A stretch of DNA of 33,531 nt from a virus. Of this stretch, positions 9,619-31,349 are shown in pieces. The position numbers and the translations under genes were made by a program. Under the pieces are notes generated by a model. That model was not told the DNA's origin and made no database searches. It worked only from the letters and a program-made list of their open reading frames with translations. Numbering within the stretch: position 1 is the stretch's first letter; the number at the start of each line of letters is the position of its first letter. Location: positions 1 to 33,531 of IMG/VR virus record IMGVR_UViG_3300033149_004194; one strand, 5' to 3'.

Positions 9619-9677
9619 GTATTATATCACTATCTTTCATTTTATAGAATTTGAAATTTTTAAATTAGGCAGAAATA

Positions 9678-9902
9678 ATGGATAATATCCTACTTGGAAT
9701 TTTTATTGGGGCAGCAACTATTGAAATCGCAAATTACCTAGCTGCTAAAACACTAAAAATAAGGAGATTTGAAATGCCAAAAGGTGATAAAACAGGGCCA
9801 CCTACTGGATCAGGTGGAAGTCGCACTGGTAAAGGTGGTGGTAAAGGCCGTGCTCCAGGAAAAGGCACTGGAAAACAAACTGGCGGTAAAAGGAATACAT
9901 AA
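9678..9902 (+). CDS. Small membrane / Gly-Lys-rich basic protein
   Basis: The 74-codon frame has two parts: a hydrophobic N-terminus (residues 3-23) and a tail from residue 33 composed almost entirely of Gly, Lys, Thr, Pro and Arg. There are two plausible starts. ATG 9678 gives the membrane form behind a poor AGGCAG site. ATG 9774 (residue 33) has an excellent AAGGAG site at 9761-9766 and gives a soluble 42-residue basic peptide beginning MPKGDKTGPP, reminiscent of short DUF5320-like Gly-rich proteins but without cysteines. The stop overlaps the deacetylase start by one base (TAATG). No function can be assigned. A highly basic tail could bind nucleic acid or anionic glycan. Confidence 0.55.
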   Translation: MDNILLGIFIGAATIEIANYLAAKTLKIRRFEMPKGDKTGPPTGSGGSRTGKGGGKGRAPGKGTGKQTGGKRNT

Positions 9903-10507
9903 TGAAAATTCTAGTTATAGCACCACATGCAGATGATGGAGAAATTGGATGTGGTGGTACTATAGCTAGACTTGCAGAAGAAGGCCATACAATATTCTAT
10001 CTGGTTTTTGCTAGCGTTGATCCTAAACTCTCTGAAGTTCAGAATGGCCTTAAAGCTCTAAGCATTCCTTCAAGTAGCATACTTTATGCCCCTATGGAAA
10101 TTAGAGAATTCACTGCCCATCGTCAGGAGTTACTTGAACATCTTATAGAGTATAAAGAATCTATATGCCCTGATTTGGTTTTTGTGCCGTCGACAAAAGA
10201 CACGCATCAAGACCACAAAACAGTGACAGAGGAGTGCTTTAGAGCTTTCAAAAAATGTTCTTTACTTGGATATGAGATACCTTGGAATAATCTGCATTTT
10301 ACTACCAATCATTTTGTTGAACTTACTGAATCGCATGTAATTAAAAAATTTAAAGCTGTCTATTGTCATGAGTCACAAAGGGATAAGGACTATATCTCCG
10401 AGAATTTTATTTTTGCTCTTGCAAGCGTTCGTGGTGTACAAATTGGTGTCAGATATGCTGAAGTCTTTGAATCTATAAGATGGGTCTCTAAAATAGGGCA
10501 AAGTTAA
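9902..10507 (+). CDS. PIG-L/LmbE-type deacetylase
   Basis: This 201-residue zinc hydrolase probably removes an N-acetyl group from an amino sugar such as a GlcNAc derivative. The family metal motif is present as PHADDGE (H9, D11, D12, E14; AHPDDxE in most members), and the second motif as HQDH (H102-H105). GCGGTIARLAEEGH after the first motif is also typical. Length is normal for the bacterial family. It is coupled to the genes on both sides by one-base stop/start overlaps. With the acyltransferases downstream, it could exchange one N-acyl group for another (inference). Confidence 0.85.
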   Translation: MKILVIAPHADDGEIGCGGTIARLAEEGHTIFYLVFASVDPKLSEVQNGLKALSIPSSSILYAPMEIREFTAHRQELLEHLIEYKESICPDLVFVPSTKDTHQDHKTVTEECFRAFKKCSLLGYEIPWNNLHFTTNHFVELTESHVIKKFKAVYCHESQRDKDYISENFIFALASVRGVQIGVRYAEVFESIRWVSKIGQS

Positions 10508-11130
10508 TGGGTGTAGATACTAGAAAAGATAATGATGAAATTACTAGAAAATATTTTCAGTCACGTTCAGATGCATACGGAGTCTCGCTGAAGGCACTTG
10601 CTTGGAACTCCCCTGCCAGTCAGGATGAACGCTTCCATGCCCTCTTCTCCCCTCCCCTCCCTCTGGAGTTTTCGGCCTTGGATGTCGGCTGTGGGTTCGG
10701 TGATCTTCTTCCTTACCTAGAGGGAACAGATTATAAAATAACAAAATATACAGGTATAGATTTTATATGTGATTTTATAACTGAAGCACGTAAAAGGCAT
10801 GCTGGCACTTGTATTAATACTGAATTTATTGTTGGTAGCACTTATGGCGGTGGTATAGCTAAGCATGATATTGTAGTTGCATCAGGCATATTTAATAAAA
10901 GGTGTAATGGTTGGTATAAATATACTGAAGATTTAATAAAAACTATGTTTGATCTTTGTACTCATTGTGTATGTGCAAATTTTTTAAGCATATACAGTGA
11001 TAACAAACAGAAAAATGCTTATTATGCTGATCCAAATAAAATACTTAATTTAGCTTTTAAAATCGGTAAGAGAGTAGTCTTGAAACATGACTATAGAAAA
11101 AATGATTTTACAGTGAGAATATACAAATGA
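10507..11130 (+). CDS. SAM-dependent methyltransferase with GC-rich insert-like patch
   Basis: This 207-residue class I methyltransferase carries motif I SALDVGCGFGDLLPYL (about 56-71), followed by YTGIDF (about 81-86) as the acidic strand. The substrate is unknown, presumably a sugar intermediate given the island. Residues about 21-71, which include motif I, are encoded by a stretch much richer in GC than the rest of the gene (60% at 10621-10680 by hand count) and use CCC and CTC codons otherwise rare here. The reading frame is intact across it. This looks like a recombined segment from a GC-richer relative. The start overlaps the deacetylase stop by one base, and the end overlaps the WbqC-like gene by four. 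Confidence 0.8.
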   Translation: MGVDTRKDNDEITRKYFQSRSDAYGVSLKALAWNSPASQDERFHALFSPPLPLEFSALDVGCGFGDLLPYLEGTDYKITKYTGIDFICDFITEARKRHAGTCINTEFIVGSTYGGGIAKHDIVVASGIFNKRCNGWYKYTEDLIKTMFDLCTHCVCANFLSIYSDNKQKNAYYADPNKILNLAFKIGKRVVLKHDYRKNDFTVRIYK

Positions 11131-11801
11131 AAACAATAATACATCAACCTACATTTATGCCTTGGGCAGGCCTCTTCCATAAAATACTCATAGCAGACAC
11201 TTTTATTTTCTTAGAAAATGTACAATTGTCTATGGGTCGTAATTTTGGTACAAGAGTTAAAATTAAGACTCCTATCGGTAATCAATGGTTGTCTGCGTCT
11301 TGTAAAAAGACTGGATATAGCAATCAATGGATTAGAGATGCTAAATTAGATGATACTACCAAATGGCGTGAGAAGCATCTTAAGACTTGGCATCATTGTT
11401 ACTCTAAAGCACCTTATTATGAATCTTATAAAAAATTATTAGATATCTATAATGCGCCTATTGATAAACTTGCGGATTTTAATGTAATTTTTATATTAAC
11501 AGTTGCAGATGCACTTGGTATCAAATGTAATTTTGGTAGAGCTGCATTTGAAACTAATCTCAGAGGTGATGATTTGCTTATAGAGATTTGCAGGTCAACT
11601 GGAGCTGATACATATATTTCAGGTAAGGGTGGTGCGAATTATCAAGATGAATATAAATTTACTGAGGCTGGTATAAAACTTAAATATGACAATTTTGTGT
11701 ATCCAATGCATAATCAGTTATGGGGGGATTTTATACCAAATCTTTCAATTATGGATCTTATATTTAATTGTGGTCCATATGCTATAAACTTTTTAAAGTA
11801 A
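11127..11801 (+). CDS. WbqC-like family protein
   Basis: This 224-residue protein fits the WbqC-like family found in O-antigen and glycan clusters. It starts with the family signature HQPTFMPWAGLFHKI (about 6-20), then ADTFIFLENVQLS (23-35) and the conserved NQWLSA segment. The C-terminal third holds GADTYISGKGGANY (about 155-168) and the closing SIMDLIFNCG. Biochemistry of the family is poorly defined. Members accompany biosynthesis of unusual N-acylated or aminated sugars, so a role in building such a residue is likely. The start overlaps the previous stop (ATGA), and 12 bases separate it from the acyltransferase that follows. Confidence 0.82.
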   Translation: MKTIIHQPTFMPWAGLFHKILIADTFIFLENVQLSMGRNFGTRVKIKTPIGNQWLSASCKKTGYSNQWIRDAKLDDTTKWREKHLKTWHHCYSKAPYYESYKKLLDIYNAPIDKLADFNVIFILTVADALGIKCNFGRAAFETNLRGDDLLIEICRSTGADTYISGKGGANYQDEYKFTEAGIKLKYDNFVYPMHNQLWGDFIPNLSIMDLIFNCGPYAINFLK

Positions 11802-11813
11802 AGGAGATTTGCC

Positions 11814-12404
11814 ATGAGAGCAGGTAGACAATACGGCAAGAGATTTAAACAGGGTATTTATTGTATCATAGAACCGGATGTGGAAATTGGTGATAATGTA
11901 ACACTGGGTCATCATGTTACATTAAAAAATGGTACAAGAATTGGTAACAATGTTGACATAGCAGACTATTGTTGCACTACTGGTATCTGTATTATTGGTG
12001 ATGGTGTGAATATCAGAACAAGATCAACTATTTCTAAAGGTGTGATTATTAATGATTGTGCTTTTATAGGTGCTGGCATAATGACTTCACATACTAAAAA
12101 TATTTATCATCATCGTCCAGACGTGCCTAAGCAACAACTTATAACAAATATTGGATATGGTGCCCTTATAGGATCACATAGTAATTTGAGAGCTGGTCTT
12201 ACTATTGGTAATAATGTCATAATAGGATACGCTAGCAGTGTCTTAAATGATATTGTAAACAGTGGACTTTATTATGGTAATCCATTGAAACGCCAAGGTG
12301 ATGTGCCAGATGGAATGTTTGTTGATGTACCTATAACTTATAAAAGCCGTAACTTTGATCCTAAACTGCTGAAAAAATATCTGCCTTACGTATTGCATAG
12401 CTAA
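11814..12404 (+). CDS. Left-handed beta-helix acyltransferase
   Basis: Residues about 17-165 are hexapeptide repeats ([IV]-G-x-x-x pattern: IGDNVTLGHHVTL, IGNNVDI, IGDGVNI, IGNNVIIGYASSV). They form the left-handed beta-helix of trimeric acyl-CoA- or acyl-ACP-dependent transferases. A loop with paired histidines (NIYHHRPDVP) interrupts the helix, as in active members. The 196-residue enzyme likely acylates an amino or hydroxyl group of a sugar. AAAGGAG lies just before the ATG at 11814. The product could use the amine exposed by the PIG-L deacetylase (inference). The next gene overlaps by one base. Confidence 0.82.
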   Translation: MRAGRQYGKRFKQGIYCIIEPDVEIGDNVTLGHHVTLKNGTRIGNNVDIADYCCTTGICIIGDGVNIRTRSTISKGVIINDCAFIGAGIMTSHTKNIYHHRPDVPKQQLITNIGYGALIGSHSNLRAGLTIGNNVIIGYASSVLNDIVNSGLYYGNPLKRQGDVPDGMFVDVPITYKSRNFDPKLLKKYLPYVLHS

Positions 12405-13255
12405 TGGATATCATTACAGATACATATAAACAGGTAGATCCATATTTTTCAGTTATGATACCTATGTTTAGATCTTACTATATAGGATGGGTTTGCTTGG
12501 AGTCTCTAATAAGACAACAAGGTGAAATACCACCATGGGAACTTATTATAGCTGAAGAGCAAGATGATGAAACTTTTGGATTAAAAATGGCATTCTACTA
12601 TTACAATATACTTAAGAAATTGAATTGTGTTAGATTAATTTATATTTCATTAAGTGATTGGATACCTTTATCTAATAAAATATCTGTTCTAATAAATAAT
12701 GCACATCCCAAGTCACAAATTTTTATAAACCATGCAGCAGACTATTATTCATCGCCTATGAGGTTTATAGAAACTGTTGAAGCTTTTAAAGATCCTAAAG
12801 TTGTGTGGTTTATACCACCTAAAATTTATAAGTATCATATATTATATAATACTATTATTTTAGTCGACAAAAGTAAAATGGTAAGAAAAGATGATACATC
12901 TGGAAAGGCTCTTAGAGCTTCATTAGCACGTAATATTGTTTATTGTCTTAAAGATAGGGATATAGGCATAGATGGTCTTATAAGAATAGGTTTTGAAAAA
13001 ACTCTAGGCCATAAAATTAATTACACTATAAATAAATCTGGGAGTTGGCAAAATAATTTATGCATTGATGGTATGGGCACTCTTTCTAATACCAATGTGG
13101 ATAAATTGTTTGCTAAACGCATAAAACAATTAGATAATGCATATAGTTATTATCCTAGAAGCTTATCAAGTATAATACCTGCATCTATGGTTCGTAGAGT
13201 TTTAAGACTTAAAAATGATTTAAACAAGCATAATCCGAGGAGAAGATCATGGTAA
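12404..13255 (+). CDS. GT-A/GT2-like glycosyltransferase
   Basis: This 283-residue protein has the opening of a family-2 glycosyltransferase: YFSVMIPMFRSYYIGWVCLESL (about 13-34), then WELIIAEEQDDE. The segment IFINHAADYYSSP (about 106-118) sits where the DxD metal-binding motif is expected but shows only a partial match. The C-terminal part is basic, with no clear membrane helices. It is less typical than the two GT-B enzymes upstream and could have a shifted metal site. It is coupled to its neighbours by overlaps of one and seven bases. Confidence 0.65.
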   Translation: MDIITDTYKQVDPYFSVMIPMFRSYYIGWVCLESLIRQQGEIPPWELIIAEEQDDETFGLKMAFYYYNILKKLNCVRLIYISLSDWIPLSNKISVLINNAHPKSQIFINHAADYYSSPMRFIETVEAFKDPKVVWFIPPKIYKYHILYNTIILVDKSKMVRKDDTSGKALRASLARNIVYCLKDRDIGIDGLIRIGFEKTLGHKINYTINKSGSWQNNLCIDGMGTLSNTNVDKLFAKRIKQLDNAYSYYPRSLSSIIPASMVRRVLRLKNDLNKHNPRRRSW

Positions 13256-13761
13256 ATTTTAAGATTGGCAAGGATACAGTCATTGAAAGAACAGCTATAA
13301 TTGAAGAGGGGGTCACAATAGGTGACAATTGTTACATTGGTCATTATACTATTATCAGACCAAACGTAGCTATCGGTAATAATACGGAAATAAGAGCTCA
13401 TTGCTTTATAGCTGAAGAAGCTAAGATAGGTGATCATGTTAGAATTTTCCATTTCAGTAATATTTGTAAATTAGCTGTAATTGAAAATTATGTTTATGTT
13501 GGTGTGAGAGCATTACTGACAAATACAAAAAGAATTGCATGGTCAAGATCATATAAAGCTGAGTTAGAGCCACCACATATTTGTGAAGGTGCTAGAATTG
13601 CATCTGGTGCAATTGTACTTCCTGGAGTGACAGTAGGTAAAAATGCTCTAGTGGGTGCTGGATCTGTTGTTGCTCGTGATGTACCTGAAAGGCAGATATG
13701 GTTTGGTCTACCTGGGAGAAAGCGTGGTACAGTACCAGAAGAAGAATTGATAGTTAAATGA
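13249..13761 (+). CDS. WbpD-like sugar N-acetyltransferase (beta-helix)
   Basis: This 170-residue hexapeptide-repeat transferase has repeats from about residue 5 to 150 (IGDNCYIGHYTII, IGNNTEIRAHCFI, IGDHVRIFHFSNI, VTVGKNALVGAGSVV) and the closing RDVPERQIWFGLPGR typical of the family. It resembles WbpD/WlbB enzymes, which N-acetylate a 3-amino group on UDP-amino-sugars. The resemblance gains weight because the next gene, overlapping by four bases, is a Gfo/Idh oxidoreductase of the WbpB/WlbA kind, the usual pathway partner. No aminotransferase (WbpE-like) is present in the island. GAGGAGAAG precedes the ATG at 13249. Exact substrate is inferred, not shown. Confidence 0.75.
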   Translation: MVNFKIGKDTVIERTAIIEEGVTIGDNCYIGHYTIIRPNVAIGNNTEIRAHCFIAEEAKIGDHVRIFHFSNICKLAVIENYVYVGVRALLTNTKRIAWSRSYKAELEPPHICEGARIASGAIVLPGVTVGKNALVGAGSVVARDVPERQIWFGLPGRKRGTVPEEELIVK

Positions 13762-14477
13762 AAGAGCTTAAAACTTTTGTATTGCTAGGTGATGGTAAAA
13801 TAGCTGAAAGACATAAACAAGCTATTGATTTTGTGGGAGGTAAGATTACCCATGTCTATGATCCATTTAAATATAATCAAACAGTAGATGAACTTAGAGA
13901 ACACTTGTCAGTGGCTGAATATGCTGTTATTTTATCTCCTAGCTATTTACATGCTATGCAGACGAAATTAGCACGATCACATAATTGTAAAGTTATTGTT
14001 GAAAAGCCTCATCATTTACCTTGGCAACCTTATGAAAATGATGACCTTATTTTTGTATGCTTGCCTTTTAGATATGTAAAATTGCCTGATGCTAAACCCG
14101 ATGATTGTGTTAAAGTTTCTTTTTTACGTGACGCAGATTACTGGAAAGGATGGCAAGGTGATTTTTTTAAAAGTGGTGGTGTTCTTAGCAACCTTTTTAT
14201 ACACTACATTGACATCGCTATAAGGATGGGTGTGCCTTTTAATGGCCAAGTTAGTGAAAATGAAGGCATTAATTCTAGAATGTATAGTAATATTGATTTA
14301 TCTCTCATAGATATGAATAATTTGTATAGAAGAATGTATGATAGTATAACTGATGGATTTGATCTTTTTACCATATTACCAAAAGATCTATATTACTTAG
14401 ATTGGATTATCAATAAATATACTAATGCAAATTATTATATTAAATTATCACTTTGGGATTGGGTTAATATTTCTTGA
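13758..14477 (+). CDS. Gfo/Idh/MocA oxidoreductase, shortened
   Basis: This 239-residue NAD(P)-dependent sugar dehydrogenase begins with a Rossmann motif (LLGDGKIAERH, 8-18). It has AVILSPSYLHA (56-66) and the EKP element (VIVEKPHH). The catalytic-domain signature YWKGWQGDFFKSGGVLSNLFIHYIDI matches WbpB/WlbA-type UDP-sugar 3-dehydrogenases. Family members usually have 310-330 residues. Here the C-terminal helix region is recognisable (LYRRMYDSI...), so roughly 70-90 residues of the central beta-sheet appear to be missing. Whether it still oxidises its substrate or acts as a scaffold is open. Its stop codon lies within the -35 element of the next promoter. Confidence 0.75.
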   Translation: MKELKTFVLLGDGKIAERHKQAIDFVGGKITHVYDPFKYNQTVDELREHLSVAEYAVILSPSYLHAMQTKLARSHNCKVIVEKPHHLPWQPYENDDLIFVCLPFRYVKLPDAKPDDCVKVSFLRDADYWKGWQGDFFKSGGVLSNLFIHYIDIAIRMGVPFNGQVSENEGINSRMYSNIDLSLIDMNNLYRRMYDSITDGFDLFTILPKDLYYLDWIINKYTNANYYIKLSLWDWVNIS

Positions 14478-20280: not shown

Positions 20281-23086
20281 TGCTGGCGATATCATAGCTA
20301 AATTAAAGTTTGACCGATCTGATTTCACATCTGGTATGGCTGCTGCTACTAAGCGTACTAATAAGTTTGCGAAACAGATGAATAGTAAAAATGTTGAAAT
20401 GCAGAAAAGTACTACGAGATTCGCAAAGTCCTCAATTAAACATGCTGAAGCTGTGGGTAAAGGCTGGTGGAGGACTTTTGGTAAAGTAGCTGTTGGTTTT
20501 ACCATTGCATATCGTGCTATGAATGCTTTTGAAGAAGGATTTAAAGCCTTCTTGCGTACTTTTGCGTCTGGCAGACAGGAAATAGATGATTTTAGAATGT
20601 CCGTTGTAAAAGTTGCAGCTTCTCTTCAGATGCTTACAGATCAACCTACAACGGAAGGCCTTGAGGCTTATTATCAATTCGCTAGAAGCGTATTTAATAA
20701 TCTTGAAGTAATTGCAGCTAAACATATTTCTACAGGTGAAGATCTTAGAGATGCTTATACTAAGTTGGCTACAATGGGGATAGTTCCAACAACAGAGAAA
20801 CAACTAGAACAAATGGCACGTCTCGTTGATTTGATAGTCATGCAAACAACGGGCCAAGACAAACAAAGGCAGATTTTAACTGAAATACGTTCTCTTGTTA
20901 AGGGAGAAATAAAACCCCAGGCCGTTGTTGCAAACCTATTATCTGAGCGTGTTCTAAATTACAAAAAAGTTGTTAAAGAAGTAAAGGAAGAAAATAGTGT
21001 AGTTAAAAAGACCAAAATGCTCTTTGAAGCTATCCATAAGCCATTGGATGCTATAGGAGCTGTCTCTAAAGATATTCAAAAGACACATACCGCTTTATGG
21101 ACTACTTTAGAAGCATATCTGGCTAAGATTCAACGTTTAGGCTTACTACAAATGTATGAAGATTTACTAGATACAATGATAAATATAAGAGATGCTATAA
21201 TAGATCAGAATGGACTGACAGATTTTGGCATTAGGTTAGCTGTTATTTATCATCAAACATGGGCTGCAGTATGGTCTGTTGTATATGGAGTTGGTAGTGT
21301 TTTGAGAGATATCTTCTGGTTAATGTCACCTTTAATTACATCACTTAAAGGATTGGCTGCTTTAACTGTATTGATTTTGGCCGGATGGGAAAAAATAGGG
21401 GCTGTTATTAAAGCCGTACTAAAGAGAGCTACGTTTGATTATTCTGCATATCATGATTTAGCTATAATACTTACTAACATCCATGAAAAGATGGTAAAAA
21501 GCCTCGAAGATATATTTATAACACCTGAGCAAATGAGAGCAAAGTATTTAGCCGGAATGAAAAAAGACCAAGAAGAAATAACAAATCAGATCAAAAAGTG
21601 GTCAACCGGTCAAAAGAAAGCTACGGATGAAACTATTAAGATGACAGAGAAATGGACTAAAAGCATTGAGAAACTAAAAAGTGAGTATGCTGTTTTATCA
21701 AAAACATTGGCTTTTATAGAAGCTAGTGAGTTTTTTACTCCAGAGGATATTAAAAGTACAAAATGGCTCTATAAACTTTTAGAGGATGCTAAAAAAGTAC
21801 CAGAAGAATTTAGATCAGCATGGATGCAAACACAAATTGCAATTTCAAGAAGTAATAAAGAAATAGCAAAAGGTGTTGAAAAAGCAAAAGAGCTTGAAAA
21901 TCTTGAAACTTTAAAAGAAAGAGCTAAGATTGCTGCTATAATTTATAAGAGGCTTGATCTTGGTGAAATCTTACGTGAGAATTTAGACTATGAGACTAAA
22001 CTTTTAGAGCTTGAATTTGATAGGAAGCATCTTGCTAAAATAATAGGTGATACAAAAGCTGCTGAAGTGTATTTATATGAAAAAGAACTTTTAGATATTG
22101 AAAAAATTTACTTTTTAGAAAAGAAACATGCTGATGATTATATTCAGGCTGCAAAAGATAGGGCTGCTATTGAATTTGCGGATTATCCGGCTTTTGATTA
22201 CGAATCACTAATTGCTGCTACGGCTAAAACTAGTGTAGAAGGTTTAGAAAGTGCTCTTAGACTTCAAAATCAGATGCTTAAACAAGCAGGTCGTAGTCGT
22301 CTTGTGCAATCTGAAAATGAAGCAGCTCTGGAATTAAAAGTAAGAAGAGATCTAATTCAGAGGTTAGAAGTAGATGGAGACACAAAAAATGCTTTGATGA
22401 TAAAAGCTAGAGAAGCTTATGCAAATAGGATACTCGAAATAAATGGCACTATTGTAGATGGAATGAGAAAAGGCCATAAAGATGTTATTGACAGTTTAAA
22501 GACATCTTTTGAAATTGGTGAAATAATTGTAAAAGAAGGATCTAGTGCTTTAATTGATGCTTTTGAGAATTCTTTTGTTAATCTAATGGAAGCAGATTTA
22601 GATTCTCTAACACAAACTTGGAGAAATTTTGGTCATAATGTACAAAAAATAATTGCTCAAATCTTAGCAGAGCAGACTAAGGCTGCTTTGTTTGGAAAAG
22701 AAAGCGGTTTAATAACACAAGCTATTAAAGTTATAGCTCCTTCAATTCTAGGTAGCTCTGATCTAGTTACAGGTGCTGTACTTCATCAAGGAATGACACC
22801 CATTCAAAGACAATCGGGTGGTTGGATACCTGAACCTGTGCTAGGCCGTGGTCTACGTTCAGGAAAACCATATACTTTTGCAGAGCATGAACCTGAGATG
22901 GTAAATCCTGGATCTCAAAGTAATGGTAGTGGTGGTGGAATTATGGAAATAACCATAAATGCTGTTGACGCAAAATCTTTTGCAGAACTTGCAAGTAGTA
23001 ATCCTGGTGCTATTACAGGCCCTTTTATTAAAGCATTATCAGGTGGTGATCGTGCATTGAGAAGTGCATTAAGGAGTGCTAAATAA
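20273..23086 (+). CDS. Tape measure protein
   Basis: This 937-residue protein sets tail length. By the common rule of about 0.15 nm per residue it predicts a tail near 140 nm. The N-terminus (AGDIIAKLKFDRSDFTSGM) is typical of tape measures. It is followed by helical, lysine-rich coiled coil and a hydrophobic zone with several possible membrane helices (about 320-380: IYHQTWAAVWSVVYGVGSV, LKGLAALTVLILAGW). A long helical section follows, and the C-terminus is typical, with GGWIPEPVLGRG and TFAEHEPEMVNP. No lytic transglycosylase or peptidase domain is visible. It overlaps the second chaperone frame by eight bases behind an AGAGGT site. Confidence 0.92.
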   Translation: MLSAGDIIAKLKFDRSDFTSGMAAATKRTNKFAKQMNSKNVEMQKSTTRFAKSSIKHAEAVGKGWWRTFGKVAVGFTIAYRAMNAFEEGFKAFLRTFASGRQEIDDFRMSVVKVAASLQMLTDQPTTEGLEAYYQFARSVFNNLEVIAAKHISTGEDLRDAYTKLATMGIVPTTEKQLEQMARLVDLIVMQTTGQDKQRQILTEIRSLVKGEIKPQAVVANLLSERVLNYKKVVKEVKEENSVVKKTKMLFEAIHKPLDAIGAVSKDIQKTHTALWTTLEAYLAKIQRLGLLQMYEDLLDTMINIRDAIIDQNGLTDFGIRLAVIYHQTWAAVWSVVYGVGSVLRDIFWLMSPLITSLKGLAALTVLILAGWEKIGAVIKAVLKRATFDYSAYHDLAIILTNIHEKMVKSLEDIFITPEQMRAKYLAGMKKDQEEITNQIKKWSTGQKKATDETIKMTEKWTKSIEKLKSEYAVLSKTLAFIEASEFFTPEDIKSTKWLYKLLEDAKKVPEEFRSAWMQTQIAISRSNKEIAKGVEKAKELENLETLKERAKIAAIIYKRLDLGEILRENLDYETKLLELEFDRKHLAKIIGDTKAAEVYLYEKELLDIEKIYFLEKKHADDYIQAAKDRAAIEFADYPAFDYESLIAATAKTSVEGLESALRLQNQMLKQAGRSRLVQSENEAALELKVRRDLIQRLEVDGDTKNALMIKAREAYANRILEINGTIVDGMRKGHKDVIDSLKTSFEIGEIIVKEGSSALIDAFENSFVNLMEADLDSLTQTWRNFGHNVQKIIAQILAEQTKAALFGKESGLITQAIKVIAPSILGSSDLVTGAVLHQGMTPIQRQSGGWIPEPVLGRGLRSGKPYTFAEHEPEMVNPGSQSNGSGGGIMEITINAVDAKSFAELASSNPGAITGPFIKALSGGDRALRSALRSAK

Positions 23087-23673
23087 TGGCAATTTTTCCT
23101 TCACTTGATACAATATCTATTATTAGTCCTCTTAGTCTTAGTATTGAAACTAAGACTTTAATATCTTTTTATAGTGGTGCTGGCCGAGAAACAAGAAAAC
23201 AAAAGTGGGTGTACCCTAAAAGAAATTTACGTGCTGTAGGTTATAAATGGTTAACTTTAGATGATGCTAATACTTTATGGCAATTTTATATGGATCGTGG
23301 AGGTGCATATGAAGCATTCAATACTTTTCTTGAACATTCAGATAGTTATGCAAACGAGTATCTAGGTACAGGTGATGGAGCTACTGTCTCTTTTAATATG
23401 CCTTCAAAAAATGCTACAAGTGAATTAATTTATGTAGATAGCATTTTAAAAACTGATCCCGCTGATTATGCTTTTACAGCTATAGGTGGCACTGATGGAG
23501 CAGATAAAATTGTATTTGTAGTAGCACCATCAGATGGATCTATTATTACAACCAATTTTACAGGCTATTTAAAAATACATAGCAGGTTTGCAGAGCATTC
23601 TTTAGAATATGATCTTTTCTTTCGTAAGTTATCTCATATGGGCATTTCTATTAAAGGTCTATTTAATGCGTAA
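23086..23673 (+). CDS. DUF2460-type distal tail protein
   Basis: This 195-residue protein resembles DUF2460 (gene-transfer-agent gp12-like) proteins that join the tube to the tip. The N-terminal segment has the family pattern SIETKTLISFYSGAGRETRKQKW, followed by the WLTLDDANTLWQFYMDRGG helix. The middle (YLGTGDGATVSFNMPS...) is a beta domain common in phage tail proteins. The start overlaps the tape measure stop by one base, and the end overlaps the next gene by eight. The order tape measure, DUF2460, DUF2163 matches known tail-tip operons. Confidence 0.8.
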   Translation: MAIFPSLDTISIISPLSLSIETKTLISFYSGAGRETRKQKWVYPKRNLRAVGYKWLTLDDANTLWQFYMDRGGAYEAFNTFLEHSDSYANEYLGTGDGATVSFNMPSKNATSELIYVDSILKTDPADYAFTAIGGTDGADKIVFVVAPSDGSIITTNFTGYLKIHSRFAEHSLEYDLFFRKLSHMGISIKGLFNA

Positions 23674-23980
23674 TATAAACGCAGCAATACTAGCACAACT
23701 TGCATCAGAAGAATTAAGGCCTTTTCTTCTTCTAGAGATGACTTTAGAAGGTACAACTTATTATTACACTAATTGTGATAAGTCTATAATTTGGGATGGT
23801 AATGTGTATGAACCACAAGAATTTATCATAAAAGATACTATTTATAGTGCAAACAAGATAGTAGATCAAGCAGAGGTTGAAATACAAAATCTCGATGATG
23901 TAATGACAGTCTTTTTTGTGGGTGGAACGCCTCAAGGATCTAAAGCTACTTTAAGATTGGTAACTCTTGTGTATGAATAA
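23666..23980 (+). CDS. N-terminal half of DUF2163-type tail-tip protein
   Basis: I place the start at ATG 23666 (AAAGGT 11 bases before, eight-base overlap with the gene upstream). The open frame extends to 23609, but that part lies inside the previous gene. The 104 residues correspond to the N-terminal domain of DUF2163/GTA gp13-like proteins: ILAQLASEELRPFLLLEMTL, YYYTNCDKSIIWDGNVYEPQ, and a strand-rich stretch ending LRLVTLVYE. Complete members continue with a cysteine-rich C-terminal domain. Here that domain is about 4.1 kb downstream (28119-28436). The half may still fold and bind its partner in trans, or may be a decayed remnant. Confidence 0.72.
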   Translation: MRNINAAILAQLASEELRPFLLLEMTLEGTTYYYTNCDKSIIWDGNVYEPQEFIIKDTIYSANKIVDQAEVEIQNLDDVMTVFFVGGTPQGSKATLRLVTLVYE

Positions 23981-23997
23981 TTTAATGGGGATAAACA

Positions 23998-24798
23998 ATG
24001 GGTACTATAACAGAATATGTTGATAATGAGATACTTGATCATATTTTTGAGAGTGGCGCATATACACCTGTAGCAGCGGTCTTTGTAGCTCTTTCTACTG
24101 CTGATCCAACACATGATGGTTCAGGTTTAACAGAACCAGCCACAGCAAATGGATATACTAGAGAAACATGTGCTTTTGGTGCAGCAGCTGCTAGAAAAAT
24201 AACACAAACAACTGATCCTATCACATTTCCAGCTAATACTACAGCGGACTGGGGATCTATTACACATTGGGCTATATGTGATAGTGTGGATCGTGCAACT
24301 GGTAATGTTCTAGCTCATGGAGCATTTGATGTAGCTAAAACTGTAAATAAAACAAATGTCTGCTCTATAGCTGTAGGCGAAATTGAAATTGGGTGGGATG
24401 CTAATGAGATGTCAGACTATTTAGCAAATAAAATACTTGATTTTGTTTTTCGTAATCAAGCATTCGCGCAGCCCACAATTCATATCGCACTTTGTGATGC
24501 AGTTATTAATGATGCTAATACAGGTGCTACAATTAGTGAACCTGCAGGCAATGCTTATGTAAGAAAAGCACACGCAGCTTGGGATGCAGCAGCAGGCGGA
24601 GCTACAGAAAATACAGGTGCTATTCAATTTGCTATACCGACAGGATCGTGGGGTAATATTACTGCGGTAGCTATTACAGATGCATTAGCTACTGGTGCTG
24701 GTAATTTGCTTTTCTATGGCAATGGCTTAGATGACGATCCGGATGATGGTGATACTGTTCAATTTGTTGATGGCGCACTTGTTGTTGCATTAACTTAA
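23998..24798 (+). CDS. Tail fibre protein with duplicated domain
   Basis: This 266-residue protein consists of two tandem copies of one phage tail-fibre domain. The first (about 3-132) starts YVDNEILDHIFESGAYTPVAAVFVALSTADP and ends with VGEIEIGWD. The second (about 138-266) starts YLANKILDFVFRNQAFAQPTIHIALCDA. Both contain GSITHWAI/GNITAVAI and NVLAHGAF/NLLFYGNG at matching places. Copies differ at most positions, so the duplication is old. It is the first gene of the cassette lying between the two halves of the DUF2163 protein. Host-range or virion-surface function is likely, and a specific receptor is unknown. Confidence 0.72.
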   Translation: MGTITEYVDNEILDHIFESGAYTPVAAVFVALSTADPTHDGSGLTEPATANGYTRETCAFGAAAARKITQTTDPITFPANTTADWGSITHWAICDSVDRATGNVLAHGAFDVAKTVNKTNVCSIAVGEIEIGWDANEMSDYLANKILDFVFRNQAFAQPTIHIALCDAVINDANTGATISEPAGNAYVRKAHAAWDAAAGGATENTGAIQFAIPTGSWGNITAVAITDALATGAGNLLFYGNGLDDDPDDGDTVQFVDGALVVALT

Positions 24799-24812
24799 TA
24801 GGAGTTTAAAAA

Positions 24813-25304
24813 ATGACGGCACATGGATATGGAGCTATAGGTTTAATTGGAAGTAATCCTGGTGATGTAGATGTAATTCCATCAGGAGATTTAGCAACTG
24901 GAGATATTTGTATAGCTACCACTGCAGATGCTACATATACTTACCGTTATCTTGCTACTTCAGGTGTAGCAGAAAACTCACCTTGGGTTATTGCACCTGA
25001 TGATATTGGTGTTAGTGATGGAAGATGGATACTAATCAATGTTGTTATTGATCCTTATGAATCTACTATGACTAGTGATGAAACTTTTACGTATGTAACA
25101 GGTGATAGGAGAAAATACTTCTTAGATCCTAATGGTGCAAATAGAAATTTCAATCCAAGTGGTGTTTTTCCTACGGGTACAGAAGCAGTAGTTATAAATA
25201 AGGGTGGGAGTTATAATATTATTTTTGACTCCACAGGTTCAGCACAAACAATAACACCTGGTGGTATGGGAGTTTATATATATAATGGTACTATTTGGAT
25301 GTAA
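24813..25304 (+). CDS. Fibre-associated beta-structured protein
   Basis: This 163-residue protein is rich in Gly, Thr, Asp and beta-strand sequence and lacks cysteine-based or enzymatic motifs. The segment ICIATTADATYTYRYLATSGVAENSPWVIAPDD (about 32-64), followed by GRWILI, is a pattern common in the shafts of phage tail fibres and spikes. The last third (FFP-like loop, NKGGSYNIIFDSTGSAQTI) resembles small beta-sandwich fibre tips. It has an AGGAG site and follows the duplicated-domain fibre gene by 14 bases. It may form the connecting piece between tail tip and spike. This is inference. Confidence 0.6.
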   Translation: MTAHGYGAIGLIGSNPGDVDVIPSGDLATGDICIATTADATYTYRYLATSGVAENSPWVIAPDDIGVSDGRWILINVVIDPYESTMTSDETFTYVTGDRRKYFLDPNGANRNFNPSGVFPTGTEAVVINKGGSYNIIFDSTGSAQTITPGGMGVYIYNGTIWM

Positions 25305-25323
25305 AATTAACTAAGGAGTGGAA

Positions 25324-25545
25324 ATGAAAAGTTTATTTAAGTTTTTTAAAGATATGATCTCTGAAGGTTCAGAAAGTTCTTGCATGAGATTTTGTGTAGT
25401 TATCATAGTGATTACTTATATGTTTAACTGGACATGGTTTAATGTAATTAATTCTCAACTGGTAAGCTTTGAGATTAAAGATCTTGTAGGGCTTTTAGGT
25501 GTTTTAGCTCTTAAAGTAGGGCAGAAAAAATTGGAGGCAAAGTAA
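25324..25545 (+). CDS. Small holin-like membrane protein
   Basis: This 73-residue protein has two hydrophobic segments (about 20-40, rich in Val/Ile, and 52-64 GLLGVLALKVG) separated by a short loop, with a charged N-terminus (KFFKDMISEGSESS) and a C-terminus QKKLEAK. This is the layout of small phage holin-like proteins whose N-terminal SSxxR segment precedes the first helix. ATG 25324 (AAGGAG five bases upstream) is preferred over the GTG at 25318, which overlaps that ribosome site. It is coupled to the following spike gene by one base. A second holin besides 5921-6373 would be unusual. Confidence 0.55.
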   Translation: MKSLFKFFKDMISEGSESSCMRFCVVIIVITYMFNWTWFNVINSQLVSFEIKDLVGLLGVLALKVGQKKLEAK

Positions 25546-27359
25546 TGGGAAAATATTTAAGCAAATTATTATCGCTATCTCTTTTTGTTGTACTATTTTG
25601 TTTATCTTCTGTAATAGGAATTAATATTGTATCCAATGTTGCAAATGCTTTTAGTATTGGCAGTACTAAAGCAACTATAGAATATGTAGTTGATTCTACA
25701 GAAGTAGACCAAGGCTTGATTGGCAATGGTAAAACTATTAAAGCCTATGTAGATGCTATTGGCGCTGTAAAAAAAGCTACTATCAAAATTAATCATAGCA
25801 GTGCAGGAAATACTACCACCTACACTTTCTCAACTTCTGAAACTGTTACATCAAATATAACTCTTGATATAGAACCAGGAGCTATTATAGATATTGCTGT
25901 TGAAAAAACCCTCACTATCAACGGCCCTTTCGATGCTGGACTTTATCAGGTATTTAATGGAGATGGAAGTGTTTATTTTGGTAAGGGAAACGTAAGCGGT
26001 ATTCGTCCTGAATGGTGGGGTGGGATAGGTGATGATTCTACTGACTGCACTGCCGCTTTTGCAAAAACCGTCACTGCTGCTGAATATGGCGTAGCAACAT
26101 ATAATGATCCGAAACAAAATATTTTGTTGAGTGCCGGAACTTATCAAGTGACTGCAACTACGGGTAATTACGCAGTCACTGTGCATTGTCCAATAAAGGG
26201 GGAAGGATCGAAGGTCTCTAACATTAAAAATATGGGGGAAGGCAGTGCATTAAAAATAGAAGGTTTAGGTGATGGAGAAATATACTATTCTCATTTTAGT
26301 GGGTTTAGTGTGGTCGGTAATGCGTCTTCAGAAGATGGAATATCTGTAAATCCCTCTATGGATTTGAATAAAGCTGTTGGATATTGTAAGTTTGAGGATG
26401 TCTACAGTCATGACCACGGAAGACACGGGTTAGTACATGATACATCTTGGGGCACTCATTATGCCAACTGTCAATTTTATCGCAACGGGGGTCTTGGTGT
26501 GTACCTTCCCGGAACTAATGCTTATAGCCAGCACAACAATATAATTTTTCGAGATTGCAACTCTCGGTGGAATGGCGGGACTGGAAATGCAAGCGCGGAT
26601 TATCTGAAGGGTGGTGTTAGAATTAGTGGCGTGTCATCTGGTGTTTACTGGGAGGGTGGAATTGTCGAAAGTAATAACGCATGGGGGTTCATTATTGGTG
26701 AAGATGCTACATATACTGCCTTTAAGGTTGTTATCAGAGGTGTATATGGAGAAAGTCATATGCCAACAGTTTCCGATTCTACTATCGGTGGATTCCTAAG
26801 ATTGTCGGCAAAGTATGAAGATGTTTCAGTAGCAGATTCTACAATCTATTATGGTGCCCCTGCCGGAAAAACTGGGTATGCTTTTTATGTAGCAAATATT
26901 CCTGAAGGTCCTCCAGGACTTCGGGAATGGGATAATACTGTACAGGAAGATGGAAGACCTGGAACGGCAACACGATCCTTTGGTGTTACAAATGCAACTG
27001 ATTTTAATATAATACATTTTACAAGAGCTTTAACTGATGCAAGCGGTAACGTTAGTTATACCGATATAGGATTCAAGCCAAGGCTTATAATCTTCCATGC
27101 TGGTTCTGGTACCGACCTTAAATACTGGTCAGTAGGTTCTGCAATGTCCAGCACAAATATGGGAGTAACGGGATGTGTCAGTACTACCGGTGAAACATAC
27201 AGCACTTCCGTTGCTTGTATATTGGCTTCAGAAGCTTGGACTGCCCATAAACAAGTGGCTACTTTGGTTAGTATGAATGACGATGGTTTTACATTAGACT
27301 GGACAAAGACAGGTACTCCAACAGGAACGGTTAGAATAACCGCTATTTGCTATAGATAA
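25545..27359 (+). CDS. Secreted-type beta-helix tailspike (depolymerase)
   Basis: This 604-residue protein resembles phage tailspikes. A head-binding/linker region (about 40-150) ends in the familiar RPEWWGGIGDDSTDCTAAF (about 153-171). A parallel beta-helix follows (about 175-430, repeated strands such as AVTVHCPIKGEGS, HYANCQFYRNGGLGVYL), then a C-terminal beta domain (GFKPRLIIFHAG...). Unusually it starts with a signal peptide: basic MGKYLSK, hydrophobic core to about residue 32 and an AxA site (A33-N34-A35). No catalytic triad can be assigned by eye, and polysaccharide cleavage is inferred from fold. The spike body is richer in GC (47% in 26401-26460) than flanking genes, implying separate ancestry. 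Confidence 0.75.
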   Translation: MGKYLSKLLSLSLFVVLFCLSSVIGINIVSNVANAFSIGSTKATIEYVVDSTEVDQGLIGNGKTIKAYVDAIGAVKKATIKINHSSAGNTTTYTFSTSETVTSNITLDIEPGAIIDIAVEKTLTINGPFDAGLYQVFNGDGSVYFGKGNVSGIRPEWWGGIGDDSTDCTAAFAKTVTAAEYGVATYNDPKQNILLSAGTYQVTATTGNYAVTVHCPIKGEGSKVSNIKNMGEGSALKIEGLGDGEIYYSHFSGFSVVGNASSEDGISVNPSMDLNKAVGYCKFEDVYSHDHGRHGLVHDTSWGTHYANCQFYRNGGLGVYLPGTNAYSQHNNIIFRDCNSRWNGGTGNASADYLKGGVRISGVSSGVYWEGGIVESNNAWGFIIGEDATYTAFKVVIRGVYGESHMPTVSDSTIGGFLRLSAKYEDVSVADSTIYYGAPAGKTGYAFYVANIPEGPPGLREWDNTVQEDGRPGTATRSFGVTNATDFNIIHFTRALTDASGNVSYTDIGFKPRLIIFHAGSGTDLKYWSVGSAMSSTNMGVTGCVSTTGETYSTSVACILASEAWTAHKQVATLVSMNDDGFTLDWTKTGTPTGTVRITAICYR

Positions 27360-27551
27360 AGTAATGAGTTCTCAACTAACCAAAATACTCTCAACCTGCT
27401 CAGTTTCAATAAGGACAATGAAGATATAAATGGATCAAGAAACTCAACAGATACATTCACTTTATTCAGTCAGCACTTATATGACTACTTAGACATTCTT
27501 CTCTAAGCTGCCTTTTGCTGAGGATATGTAAAAATATTTTAAGATAAACAA

Positions 27552-28436
27552 ATGGCTATTTTTGATTTTTATTTTGTAGATACCGATAATTTCATATGGA
27601 CAAATACTGATGATTTCATATGGACCAAACTAAACTCCATTGATCTTACAGTAAGTCCTATAGGTGTCTCTAGTATACCTGATAATGTAGCGTTAGATGT
27701 ATTACGCAACCAAATTGCTACCCCAGTAGGTGTGTCATCAACTGCTGATGATACAATTATCTTAGTTTTAAGACAACTAATAGGCATGATAAATCCTGCA
27801 TCATCAACTTCAGATGCAGTTGTTCTAGCAGTTTTAAGAAAATTTATATCTTCAATAGATGCATCTAGTACTACACCAGATGATGTTCTTTTAGAAGTCT
27901 TACGTAATTTAATAGCTTCAATAGATGTTACAAGTACTACACCTGATGACGTAGTTTTACTTATCTTAAGACAGTTGATCGCTAGTATTTCTACTGGCAG
28001 TACAACTACTGATGATATTCAGCTTTTAGTATTACGTTTACTTCTGGCAGCCATTGAAGCTGTGTCTTCCACATCAGATGACACTGCTCTTACAGTTACA
28101 ACTGGTAAACATTTGGTACCTGCAGGCGATGCAGCTGCAATAATTTTTGAAGGCACTATTGATTCATGGCATTTAGATGAAGAGAAACTAAATTTTACTA
28201 TTGTTAGCCTTTTTGTGCAATGGGCACAGAAAACGTTGCAACGACATGCACCGTCTTGTAGATGGAAAGTCTTTGGTGGAACTGAGTGTGGATATGTTGG
28301 TGGTGAAACTGAATGTGATAGAAGTTATGCAAGATGTTTAGAACTAGCTAATACAGACAACTTTGGTGGCTTTAGATGGCTACCAAGTATTGTAGATAAG
28401 GAAATTTGGTGGGGTAGACTACGTGGCGAAGATTAA
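27552..28436 (+). CDS. 22-residue-repeat protein fused to C-terminal half of DUF2163
   Basis: This 294-residue chimera has three parts. Residues 1-32 contain a short duplicated DxFIWT element. Residues about 41-182 hold six tandem 22-residue repeats with Leu-Arg at 51, 73, 95, 117, 139 and 161 and an SSTxxDD turn. Residues 190-294 correspond to the C-terminal domain of DUF2163/GTA gp13-like tip proteins (IFEGTIDSWHLDEEKL, SCRWKVFGGTECGYVG, NTDNFGGFRWLP, KEIWWG). The matching N-terminal domain is 4.1 kb upstream. No good ribosome site precedes the ATG at 27552. The gene overlaps the NlpC-like gene by 14 bases, so expression in the tip operon is preserved. Confidence 0.75.
   Translation: MAIFDFYFVDTDNFIWTNTDDFIWTKLNSIDLTVSPIGVSSIPDNVALDVLRNQIATPVGVSSTADDTIILVLRQLIGMINPASSTSDAVVLAVLRKFISSIDASSTTPDDVLLEVLRNLIASIDVTSTTPDDVVLLILRQLIASISTGSTTTDDIQLLVLRLLLAAIEAVSSTSDDTALTVTTGKHLVPAGDAAAIIFEGTIDSWHLDEEKLNFTIVSLFVQWAQKTLQRHAPSCRWKVFGGTECGYVGGETECDRSYARCLELANTDNFGGFRWLPSIVDKEIWWGRLRGED
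27672..28067 (+). repeat. Six 66-bp coding repeats
   Basis: Six units of exactly 66 bases (22 codons) encode a repeated module with Leu-Arg at fixed positions and Ser-Thr-x-x-Asp-Asp in the turn. Copies have diverged in DNA sequence but never in length, showing selection for the protein repeat. The array lies just before the orphan C-terminal domain. Confidence 0.85.
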
Positions 28437-28866
28437 ACTAAGACTAGCCGAAATCACACAAAAATATATAGGATCACCTTATAAATTAAATGGGTGGTCT
28501 GTTGATGAGGGCTTTGATTGCTTTAGTTTATTATACACTATTAGTACTGAAGAATATGGCTTTAAAATGCTTACTAAATTTGACGGTGTTAATCTAAAAA
28601 ACTATAGTAGAGAATGGATTTTAGATCAAGCATCTGCAAGAGATCTTTTTGTAAAATATCTATCAGAAATTTGCACTGAAATAAAGCCTGGTTTTAATAA
28701 AGCTGGTGATATTTTATTATTAGAAGGCAGTACCAATATCACTATAGGGATGCAAATAGGGCAAGATCTAATTATGTCTGCTTTTACAGATATTGGTGTA
28801 GCTTTAAACAGCCTAAGACCATATAAAATTATAAAGGTATTCAGATGGGTAGTCAAGCAGAAGTAG
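28423..28866 (+). CDS. NlpC/P60-like tail-tip protein, histidine-less
   Basis: In phage tails this family of cysteine peptidases cuts peptidoglycan at entry. The 147-residue protein has the N-terminal pattern (YIGSPYKLNGW...GFDCFSLLY, catalytic-type C33) and the later ITIGMQIGQDLIMSAF segment, which normally contains the catalytic His (HVGIY...). Here the His position is Thr/Ile, and the entire protein contains no histidine. The fold may persist as a structural tip protein without peptidase activity. The start is GTG 28423 inside the end of the preceding gene. The end overlaps the J-like gene by 22 bases. Confidence 0.75.
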   Translation: MAKIKLRLAEITQKYIGSPYKLNGWSVDEGFDCFSLLYTISTEEYGFKMLTKFDGVNLKNYSREWILDQASARDLFVKYLSEICTEIKPGFNKAGDILLLEGSTNITIGMQIGQDLIMSAFTDIGVALNSLRPYKIIKVFRWVVKQK

Positions 28867-31349
28867 TAAATACGGTGATTTCTATTGCTACAGTTGCTTT
28901 AGTAGCATCAGGACAATATCCAGCTGCTTATATTCTTGCTGGTAGTATGGCTGCGCAATATATCATTGCAAGTGTTCTAGGAGAAGATGCAAAGTTACCT
29001 TCTCTAGACACTGCAATGCAAGGTGGTACAGGTATAAGAGCTAATGCTAGATCTACTACAGAGCCTATCAAAGTGCTTTATGGGAGATTGAGAATTGGAG
29101 GTAATGACGTATACAGCGTTGTAACTGGAACTGATAATAATATCTTATGGATAGTACAAACTTTGTCTGAAGGGGAGTGTGATTCTATACATCAAGATGG
29201 TGGTGTAGACCAAGTATATCTTGGAGATTTGCGTTATGATGAATATGGCGGTAATGCAGAATACTGTTTTCATTCTGGTACAGCAGCTCAAGTTGTTGAT
29301 GCTACACTTAATGCAGCAGATGCTAATTGGACTGACCCTATGCGTTATACTAGTTACATTATATGGAAACTAACTTATGATAGAAACTACTTCCAAAGCT
29401 TTCCGAAACGTAGTATAATTCTTAATGGTAGAAAGCTCTATGACTTACGAGATGCTAGTACTATCTGGTCTGATAATCTTGTGCTTTGTTTGTATGATTA
29501 TATGACTAATAGTCGTTATGGTCTAGGTGTGCCAGCAGCTAATTTAGATGAAGATACTTGGAAAACTGCAGCTACATATTGTGATACAAAAGGATGGACA
29601 TTTAATTATCTTCTCACTGGCCAAGAAGTCAAACAAGATATTCTTGATCTCATGTGTTTACATGGCCGACTTCAACTCATATGGTGGGATAATAAATTTT
29701 ATTTAAAATATTGTGATCTTAATGATGAAGCATCTGTTATGACACTTACAGATGATCATATTGTACAAGATGGAGCTGGCAAAGACAATATTTCAATAAC
29801 AGAACCATCTATTTTTAAAAAACCTGATGCCTTATCCATTGCTTACACAAACCCCGACAATGATTATGTGATAGAAAATTTTCTTGTGGGTAATTCAGCA
29901 GGTGCTGTAGAAGAATTTCGTCTTTTAGGATGCACCAATAAACAACAAGCTGCTGACCTTGGTATATATGAACTAGAAAGACGCCAATTGAATAGACTTG
30001 TTTCTGGTATATTTCGTGATGATGCTATAAAATTAGAACAATTTGATGTTGTAACTTTCAATAGTACAGCACTTGGTATAGCTGACCAACTTATGCGTGT
30101 TACAGAAGCTACATACACTGCTAATGGCCAGATTTCATTGAGTCTCATGTATGAAAATTTAGCATTATATGATGATAGTTATAACTTAAATGAGGAAACT
30201 ATATATACATGTTCACTGCCTGATCCGACAGCAGAGCCACCAGCTGTAGCTAATGTCACATCTACAGAAGAGACATATAATTATAGGCTAAGAACTTTTA
30301 CAAGGCTTAAAATTACATTTGATCCACCAGCTGACTACAATTGGTATGATCACGTTGAAGTATGGATAAGCTATGATGATGCTACTTGGAAATATTTATA
30401 TGATACGAATACAGATTTTAATATTGATTCTGTCGAAGAAGGAACTAAGTACTACATAAGATTAAAAACTGTTTCTATATGGCATACTAAGCAGTTAGAT
30501 GCCAATGATTTTAAAATATCTCATTTGGTAGTGGGTTTTGATGATGCTCCTGATAATATGGATACACCAAGTGCTATTATCACGAGTGATGTTGTAAATA
30601 TCATAGGTGAAGAAGTTGATGCTACAGATGTAGTAGGATATGAATTTAGAGTTTCAGATCAGACTGTAGCATCTTGGAGTGGTGCTGCTTTTCTTGCTTT
30701 TAATAAAAAGCCTGTATGGTCACTTTCAGGTATGCGTTCAGGCAGTTTTCGAATATGGTGTAGCCCTGTAAGTAACAATGGCTCATATAGTGGTACACCT
30801 GTTCATGTAGATTTTACTGTTAATCAGCCAAAAGGTTATAGAGCTTATTTTTCTGCTGATCTTGATCAAGGCACTGGTGTTCATGATGATACAGAATTTT
30901 TTGATCAAGGTCTTGGTGACTATTGTTTGAGAATTGATCATGCTGCAGCTTTAACAGGCACTTGGACTTCTGCTGAAATAGATATAGGTGAAGAAAGAAA
31001 AGTTCGTGTTGAAGGTGATTTTATTACTAAAGTCATTTCAACAACAGCTACATGGGACGCTTTATGGCCCGATCCAGGTATATGGACTACAAAAGACGTT
31101 ATGGCCTTAACATGGTCTGAAATTTTTGGGCTAACGAAAGCTGCAATTATTAAAGCTAAATTAAAATGGGGTACGGTTTCAGGTGTGTATCCTAACGAAG
31201 TTAATCTTTTTGAATTACTGTCAGTTGACTGTTATGGCAGGTATTTTCAAGTTGAAGTAACAATTACTGACACAGCAGAAGATTATTATTTATTACTTGA
31301 CGGTGACCAAGATGATGATACTGTCTTAACCCTTACATTTTATATATAG
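28845..31349 (+). CDS. Central tail hub, J-like/GTA gp15-like
   Basis: This 834-residue protein should form the tail-tip hub and contact the host. An N-terminal hydrophobic Ala-rich segment (about 10-45) is followed by a conserved block, EPIKVLYGRLRIGG (about 73-86). The phage-tail_3-like region is around 190-440 (FPKRSIILNGRKLYDL, SRYGLGVPAANLDEDTW, QLIWWDNKFYLKY). A fibronectin-III-like domain is near 475-560, and further beta domains extend to the end. There are no cysteine-rich or enzymatic motifs. Gene order after an NlpC-like gene matches lambda K-I-J and gene-transfer-agent tips. The more variable C-terminal third may be receptor-facing (inference). Confidence 0.82.
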   Translation: MGSQAEVVNTVISIATVALVASGQYPAAYILAGSMAAQYIIASVLGEDAKLPSLDTAMQGGTGIRANARSTTEPIKVLYGRLRIGGNDVYSVVTGTDNNILWIVQTLSEGECDSIHQDGGVDQVYLGDLRYDEYGGNAEYCFHSGTAAQVVDATLNAADANWTDPMRYTSYIIWKLTYDRNYFQSFPKRSIILNGRKLYDLRDASTIWSDNLVLCLYDYMTNSRYGLGVPAANLDEDTWKTAATYCDTKGWTFNYLLTGQEVKQDILDLMCLHGRLQLIWWDNKFYLKYCDLNDEASVMTLTDDHIVQDGAGKDNISITEPSIFKKPDALSIAYTNPDNDYVIENFLVGNSAGAVEEFRLLGCTNKQQAADLGIYELERRQLNRLVSGIFRDDAIKLEQFDVVTFNSTALGIADQLMRVTEATYTANGQISLSLMYENLALYDDSYNLNEETIYTCSLPDPTAEPPAVANVTSTEETYNYRLRTFTRLKITFDPPADYNWYDHVEVWISYDDATWKYLYDTNTDFNIDSVEEGTKYYIRLKTVSIWHTKQLDANDFKISHLVVGFDDAPDNMDTPSAIITSDVVNIIGEEVDATDVVGYEFRVSDQTVASWSGAAFLAFNKKPVWSLSGMRSGSFRIWCSPVSNNGSYSGTPVHVDFTVNQPKGYRAYFSADLDQGTGVHDDTEFFDQGLGDYCLRIDHAAALTGTWTSAEIDIGEERKVRVEGDFITKVISTTATWDALWPDPGIWTTKDVMALTWSEIFGLTKAAIIKAKLKWGTVSGVYPNEVNLFELLSVDCYGRYFQVEVTITDTAEDYYLLLDGDQDDDTVLTLTFYI

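Follow-up and report, generated by a model that had tools for sequence, protein, structure and literature searches.

A probable two-chain baseplate hub around a gene cassette in an uncultured siphophage

Tail hubs are usually viewed as rigid symmetric cores, and the question raised here is how one of them can be encoded in two pieces with several genes between them. The locus lies in IMG/VR virus record IMGVR_UViG_3300033149_004194, a metagenomic record whose complete sequence of 33,531 bases (the window in what follows) is probably a fragment of a siphophage, a virus of bacteria. In this window the N-terminal part of a baseplate hub (the N-half) and its C-terminal part (the C-half) are encoded by two open reading frames (ORFs) with a cassette of four genes between them. 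The answer proposed is that the window hub probably consists of two separately translated chains completed in trans, with the cassette placed in a hairpin loop of the attachment domain.

Two complementary parts of one hub

Both ORFs were confirmed by translation, with products of 104 amino acids (23666-23980) and 294 amino acids (27552-28436), and the hub is therefore not encoded as one chain in the window. The earlier note, made from the sequence alone, had identified the first product as the N-terminal part of a DUF2163/GTA (gene transfer agent) gp13-like protein and had placed the cysteine-rich C-terminal part in the 3' portion of the second gene; both identifications hold. The N product matched PF09931 (E 1.4e-5, profile positions 3-71 of 160) with 25.8 bits, 0.2 below the gathering score of 26, and the intact relative L003 matched the same profile with 29.2 bits over residues 28-164. 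We take PF09931 to be the former DUF2163, represented by the N-terminal attachment domain of phiJL001 Gp84. Family hidden Markov models (HMMs) built from intact relatives (N part of 102 positions, C part of 99) were matched by the N product at positions 1-101 of 102 (E 1e-34 to 4e-37) and by the final 96 residues of the C product at positions 2-97 of 99 (E 6e-47). In this profile comparison, which the earlier note had proposed, both products belong to one family; their matches do not overlap and jointly span the whole intact protein of 211 amino acids, the hub-derived lengths being 104 + about 108 = 212 amino acids versus 211 in L003. All four family cysteines, invariant in the alignment, are kept in the C product (Cys236, Cys246, Cys255 and Cys262), and their domain is predicted to be an iron-sulphur (Fe-S)-type or metal domain that would bind a cluster. 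The N product and the C-half are complementary parts of one gpL/RcGTA-type baseplate hub (PF09931). The view of one ancestral chain with an insertion between its parts, both of them kept, is thus borne out, and no second hub, complete or otherwise, was matched in the 33.5-kb record.

The two ORFs lie 3,571 nucleotides (nt; about 3.6 kb) apart, with the four cassette genes in the gap, while the hub-derived sequences are about 4.1 kb apart because the C product bears a non-hub N-terminal extension of about 185 amino acids. Profile matches, cysteines and gene order are those of the hub family and the single chain is missing, so the window hub is treated as a split variant and not as an ordinary member.

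The position of the break was located on an AlphaFold2 model of L003, made from a 13-row alignment, in which the predicted local distance difference test (pLDDT) values by block are 81-90 over residues 91-130. The break sits in the turn between predicted strands 93-101 and 113-125 (L003 numbering). Residues 1-149 of the model align as a single unit to T5 pb3 residues 1-172 (Z 14.9), lambda gpL 1-164 (Z 13.2) and the RcGTA hub 5-144 (Z 13.2), and also to the R4C hub 2-142 and JBD30 gp50 4-140 (Foldseek, VIA). Since PF09931 covers L003 residues 28-164 and residues 1-149 align as one unit, the break falls within the attachment domain and neither half holds all of it. According to the model, the break is inside a single tail-tube-like attachment domain (PF09931/HDI), in a hairpin loop, and not at a domain linker as had been suggested.

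The features of the region are the following:

23086..23673, + strand: DUF2460 tail protein, upstream neighbour of the hub N-half (PF09343, E 5.7e-12; homologues in 109 collected loci)
23666..23980, + strand: hub N-half, 104 amino acids, HDI attachment domain up to the strand preceding the loop (PF09931, family HMM, alignment)
23998..24798, + strand: cassette gene 1, two Gp80 fibre-type domains in tandem (PF23140, E 1.1e-58)
24813..25304, + strand: cassette gene 2, 163 amino acids, possibly with a fibre- or depolymerase-like C-terminal part (weak match to PF25692, Phage_depo_C, E 1e-3, below cut-off)
25324..25545, + strand: cassette gene 3, membrane protein of 73 amino acids, holin-like by eye (hydrophobic segment seen in the sequence)
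25545..27359, + strand: cassette gene 4, 604 amino acids, with a signal-peptide-like N-terminus and spike-like, both by eye
27552..28106, + strand: N-terminal extension of the C-half, about 185 amino acids, fibre-like, with repeats of 22 amino acids (66 nt; 66-nt register, 39% match to the fibre repeats of L052)
28107..28436, + strand: hub C-half, remaining attachment-domain strands and four-cysteine domain (family HMM, alignment, four invariant cysteines)
28423..28866, + strand: NlpC/P60-like protein, downstream neighbour of the C-half (weak PRK10838 match, E 7e-4; homologues in 80 collected loci)
28845..31349, + strand: gpJ-like central hub/fibre protein, the expected hub partner (phrog_31, central tail fiber J, E 2.4e-44)

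The gene order of the window is terminase, portal, glycan-type block, capsid, tail genes, DUF2460, split-hub region, NlpC/P60-like and gpJ-like. The order DUF2460, hub, NlpC/P60 and J of the hub family is present with the cassette interposed, and the RcGTA hub presumably occupies a comparable place in its operon. The flanking genes are those named in the earlier note, the identity of the NlpC/P60-like one resting mainly on gene position and on homologues in relatives because its profile support is weak. The end of the DUF2460 gene overlaps the start of the N-half (23666 versus 23673), so that translational coupling is likely. The C-half is preceded by 192 gene-free nt (27360-27551); by eye, its start has no clear ribosome-binding site and cassette genes 2-4 have strong ones. 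The portal-capsid interval (6398-14477) is a glycan/metabolism-type block with two NeuD-type hexapeptide acetyltransferases and, by eye, glycosyltransferase-, methyltransferase-, PAPS-reductase-, deacetylase- and WbqC-like genes.

The same loop in relatives

About 100 distinct contigs and four genome contigs were collected by scanning with the halves and with profiles. Most of these relatives encode a one-chain hub with a loop of 9-15 residues. Two further contigs, L014 (59.8 kb) and L018 (69.5 kb), are split at the same loop and share the order DUF2460, N-half, cassette, C-half, NlpC-like and J; no second hub was matched in either record. Their N-halves end in fibre-like extensions. The cassette genes common to both adjoin the two hub halves (45% and 65-67% identity) and the inner genes differ, whereas the window cassette gave no match to these cassettes at E 1e-4. 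The comparison of close relatives, called for by the earlier note, thus identified the same loop split again and with a different cassette. Searches with the N-half profile, or with the cassette gene adjoining the L018 C-half, gave no split loci besides L014 and L018, and the N-half tail of L014/L018 was not found fused to the cassette gene that follows it. Among cultured phages, no relatives of either half were identified with tblastn at E 0.01, and L003 gave only weak gpL-type hits (23-25%, E 0.02 or worse) among the matches listed.

Inserts of at least 20 residues (profile count) were identified at three main sites of the hub. The first is the split hairpin loop, the only site where gene splits were seen; here an in-frame LamG domain (PF13385) is present in four distinct hubs (L008, L049/L052, L050/L053 and L063), and other in-frame inserts comprise about 156 amino acids in L096, 80 in L142 and 44-50 in L017, L051, L065 and L118. 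The second is the inter-cysteine loop, as in RcGTA (L025, L071, L074/L075, L084 and L085), and the third a loop near residue 45-60 (L012, L097 and L146). At the second site, 120-250 amino acids lie between the hub cysteines of L025/L040, L071 and L074/L075, in a position comparable to the RcGTA sugar-binding domain. The hubs of L052 and L053 are 94% identical in the N part and 98% in the C part versus 36% in the LamG core between them, and their DNA alignment stops within the LamG region. With two kinds of cassette in the split phages, several LamG-inserted hubs and one pair whose LamG core has been exchanged, the suggestion of a modular landing site gains ground, and these comparisons support the loop as a recurrent site for exchangeable inserts. 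Other hub arrangements were also seen: adjacent hub genes in L122 (2024-6166 and 6163-6837; also in L123 and L124), one of them plain and the other fused to an N-terminal part of about 1,200 amino acids, LamG-like and beta-propeller-like by eye; and tandem overlapping hub genes in one contig, L035 (3-680 and 628-1335).

As to the origin of the cassette, homologues of cassette gene 1 (46-49% identical) sit downstream of J in the intact relatives L052 and L043/L044, and in the unsplit L052 the Gp80-type gene and a fibre with 22-residue repeats lie together after J at the operon end. The simplest account would be that an operon-end module of this kind was placed in the hub loop, which is the presumed direction of the move. 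L002, which shares 5,663 identical nt with the window, extends 666 nt past the window end, and no such module was identified in these 666 nt right after the last gene of the window. At the junctions no mobile-element ends or long flanking repeats were seen, and terminator and promoter matches around them are at chance level.

In the tree of the C part, the window falls with L003, L130 and the LamG-bearing L008, and L014/L018 with L004, L030, L013 and L136, which suggests two origins of the split. The L014+L018 pair is supported in all three trees (99/95 for the C part, 100/98 for the N part and 100/99 for the two jointly); because of this pairing and the common junction genes, their split is taken as ancestral, and very likely predates their divergence.

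Competing explanations and the two-chain hub

The content of the cassette bears on the first alternative, in which it is a lysis or exclusion (moron-like) block whose placement in the hub gene is incidental. This is compatible with a two-chain hub and, as an account of the cassette, is unlikely. Small membrane proteins and signal-peptide-like N-termini (window 25545-25650; L014 4777 and 6338; L018 4851 and 5635) are present in each of the three split-phage cassettes and speak for it; the latter are unusual for virion fibres. The Gp80 fibre domains in the cassette, the fibre-like repeats fused to the C-half (an extension that is helical in a low-confidence model) and the lectin-like domains at the same loop in relatives are contrary to it. 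No family match was obtained in Pfam or NCBIfam for the 73-residue protein; for the 604-residue one the searches gave neither a convincing family match nor a relative among viruses. The Gp80 domains and fibre-like repeats point to virion appendages; exported or lysis-related functions are suggested as well, by the small membrane proteins and the signal-peptide-like N-termini. Of the host-recognition/depolymerase cassette described earlier, the clearly fibre-type Gp80 gene and the small membrane protein stand; the depolymerase-like match of the 163-residue product is weak, the spike is seen by eye, and a host-recognition role may not extend to the whole cassette, several of its proteins being secreted- or membrane-like.

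A more doubtful alternative is that the tail uses the C-half alone, together with its fibre-like extension, the N-half being a remnant that is optional or in decay and whose place another protein has taken. It would explain the large new N-terminal part of the window C-half and the N-half branches of the split phages, longer than those of the C-halves (0.67 versus 0.33 in the window). The substitution pattern argues otherwise. Between L014 and L018, synonymous differences per site (pS) in the N-half are saturated (0.92), the non-synonymous value (pN) is 0.36 and pN/pS is 0.39, close to the 0.34-0.37 of the same part in unsplit pairs; the C-half has pN 0.22 and pN/pS 0.24, and J has pN/pS 0.27. 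Shuffled partners gave about 0.95-0.99 for the three (0.96 for the N-half). Provided that the split is ancestral, the comparison of coding sequences demonstrates that both halves of this pair are under purifying selection. The same is likely of both window halves, where most of the columns conserved in other relatives are kept (31/39 in the N-half and 43/45 in the C-half). The N-half frame has also stayed open, which occurred in about 1.5% (window) to 11% of neutral-drift simulations, the window value being only suggestive because its branch includes time before the split.

It is highly improbable that a metagenomic mis-assembly joined the cassette into the hub gene. The record is metagenomic, its N-half junction was seen once and the related L002 starts within the repeat region, but a split at this loop is also present, with different sequences, in two contigs that come from other data sets, genes and strand are continuous, and no cassette-free hub copy lies alongside.

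The least credible alternative has an intron or protein trans-splicing (split intein) joining the halves again ahead of assembly. It is prompted by an intein-like insert in the terminase gene (1307-3826), a sign that protein splicing may occur in the lineage. Against it, the C-half begins with a start codon of its own and gave no intein match in Pfam, the N-halves of L014/L018 have fibre-like and not intein-like ends, and the window has no Rfam match (intron or RNA element) at the gathering threshold. The candidates rejected in this way were a self-splicing group I/II intron and a split intein, for which neither the N-half C-end nor the C-half N-end has an intein half, a motif or a Pfam match; there is no room for an N-intein because the N-half ends at LVTLVYE directly after the strand, without extension. 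No tRNA was identified in the window. The terminase insert itself, delimited by eye in the large-subunit ORF of 839 amino acids, runs from about residue 164 (CHDDQTEVLTKDGW) to about 507; it has a homing-endonuclease-like part and weakly matches a ribonucleotide reductase model known to include inteins.

For the hub of two chains, the following mechanism is proposed. A block of fibre-type and membrane or secreted genes would have been inserted where two neighbouring strands of the attachment domain are joined by a short hairpin loop. The N-chain would give the strands up to the loop, and the C-chain, with its fibre-like N-terminal extension, the strands beyond the loop together with the Fe-S-type cysteine domain. 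The chains would most likely complete one domain non-covalently during assembly of the hub trimer on the distal tail protein and gpJ, and the loop, which in relatives displays a lectin-like LamG domain, would become an open exit for larger appendages. From the sequences we infer both the reassembly in trans and a virion role of the cassette proteins. A split tip reassembling in trans had already been suggested; complementarity, recurrence and selection support it as a proposal, short of a demonstrated fact.

Several points weigh against the two-chain hub. Compared with most unsplit hubs, the N-halves of the split phages lie on longer branches and retain somewhat fewer of the conserved columns; a model of the C-half on its own is of low confidence (mean pLDDT 52.8); the window N-half junction was seen in one contig only; and, the contig being a fragment, an intact hub may lie elsewhere in the genome. 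As to the independence of the lineages, a single origin of the three split phages is not rejected in the joint tree (approximately unbiased (AU) test, p 0.32).

If the two-chain hub is correct, a naturally split hub under selection would indicate that the attachment domain can be completed from two chains, the loop would be a point where these phages add or exchange recognition domains, and the presence of adhesin-like genes within a tail core operon would receive a testable explanation. The wider claim is that, in uncultured siphophages, the loop serves as a natural place for receptor-binding modules to land: a lectin-like domain is swapped there in frame in some hubs, and at least two lineages have opened the loop, which hosts a gene cassette in a two-chain hub completed in trans; on balance it seems rather more probable than improbable.

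Relation to known hubs

In the open-licence literature searched, no report was found of a break within HDI with several genes between the halves, or of the hairpin loop as an insertion site. Inserted domains have been described in hubs before (PMC7296036, PMC10038345). In the RcGTA hub Rcc01696 (g13), the attachment domain comprises residues 1-142 and a sugar-binding insert (168-249) lies between two stretches of the ion-binding domain (PMC7296036). The window hub resembles it in the attachment domain, the four-cysteine Fe-S domain and the sugar-binding type of insertion described there (PMC7296036), but the RcGTA hub is a single chain and its insert lies between cysteine pairs, not in the hairpin loop of the attachment domain.

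Lambda gpL, the Chi baseplate hub 1 protein and JBD30 gp50 (upper baseplate protein) have the same attachment-domain fold (Z 12.5-13.2). A four-cysteine C-terminal domain is described for the lambda and JBD30 hubs (PMC11445458); the lambda, Chi and JBD30 hubs are single chains, and the portions of the sources consulted do not mention an insertion at the loop split in the window. Division of the hub is known as well, the single-chain T5 pb3 and LSH1 gp25 corresponding to gpL plus gpJ elsewhere, with hypervariable additions at the break (PMC13243795). That division separates HDI from HDII-IV, whereas the window break is within HDI and has several genes between the parts. The nearest arrangement is that of the LamG-inserted hubs (L008, L049/L052, L050/L053 and L063), which belong to the same family and use the same loop, but in which the insert is in frame and the gene unsplit.

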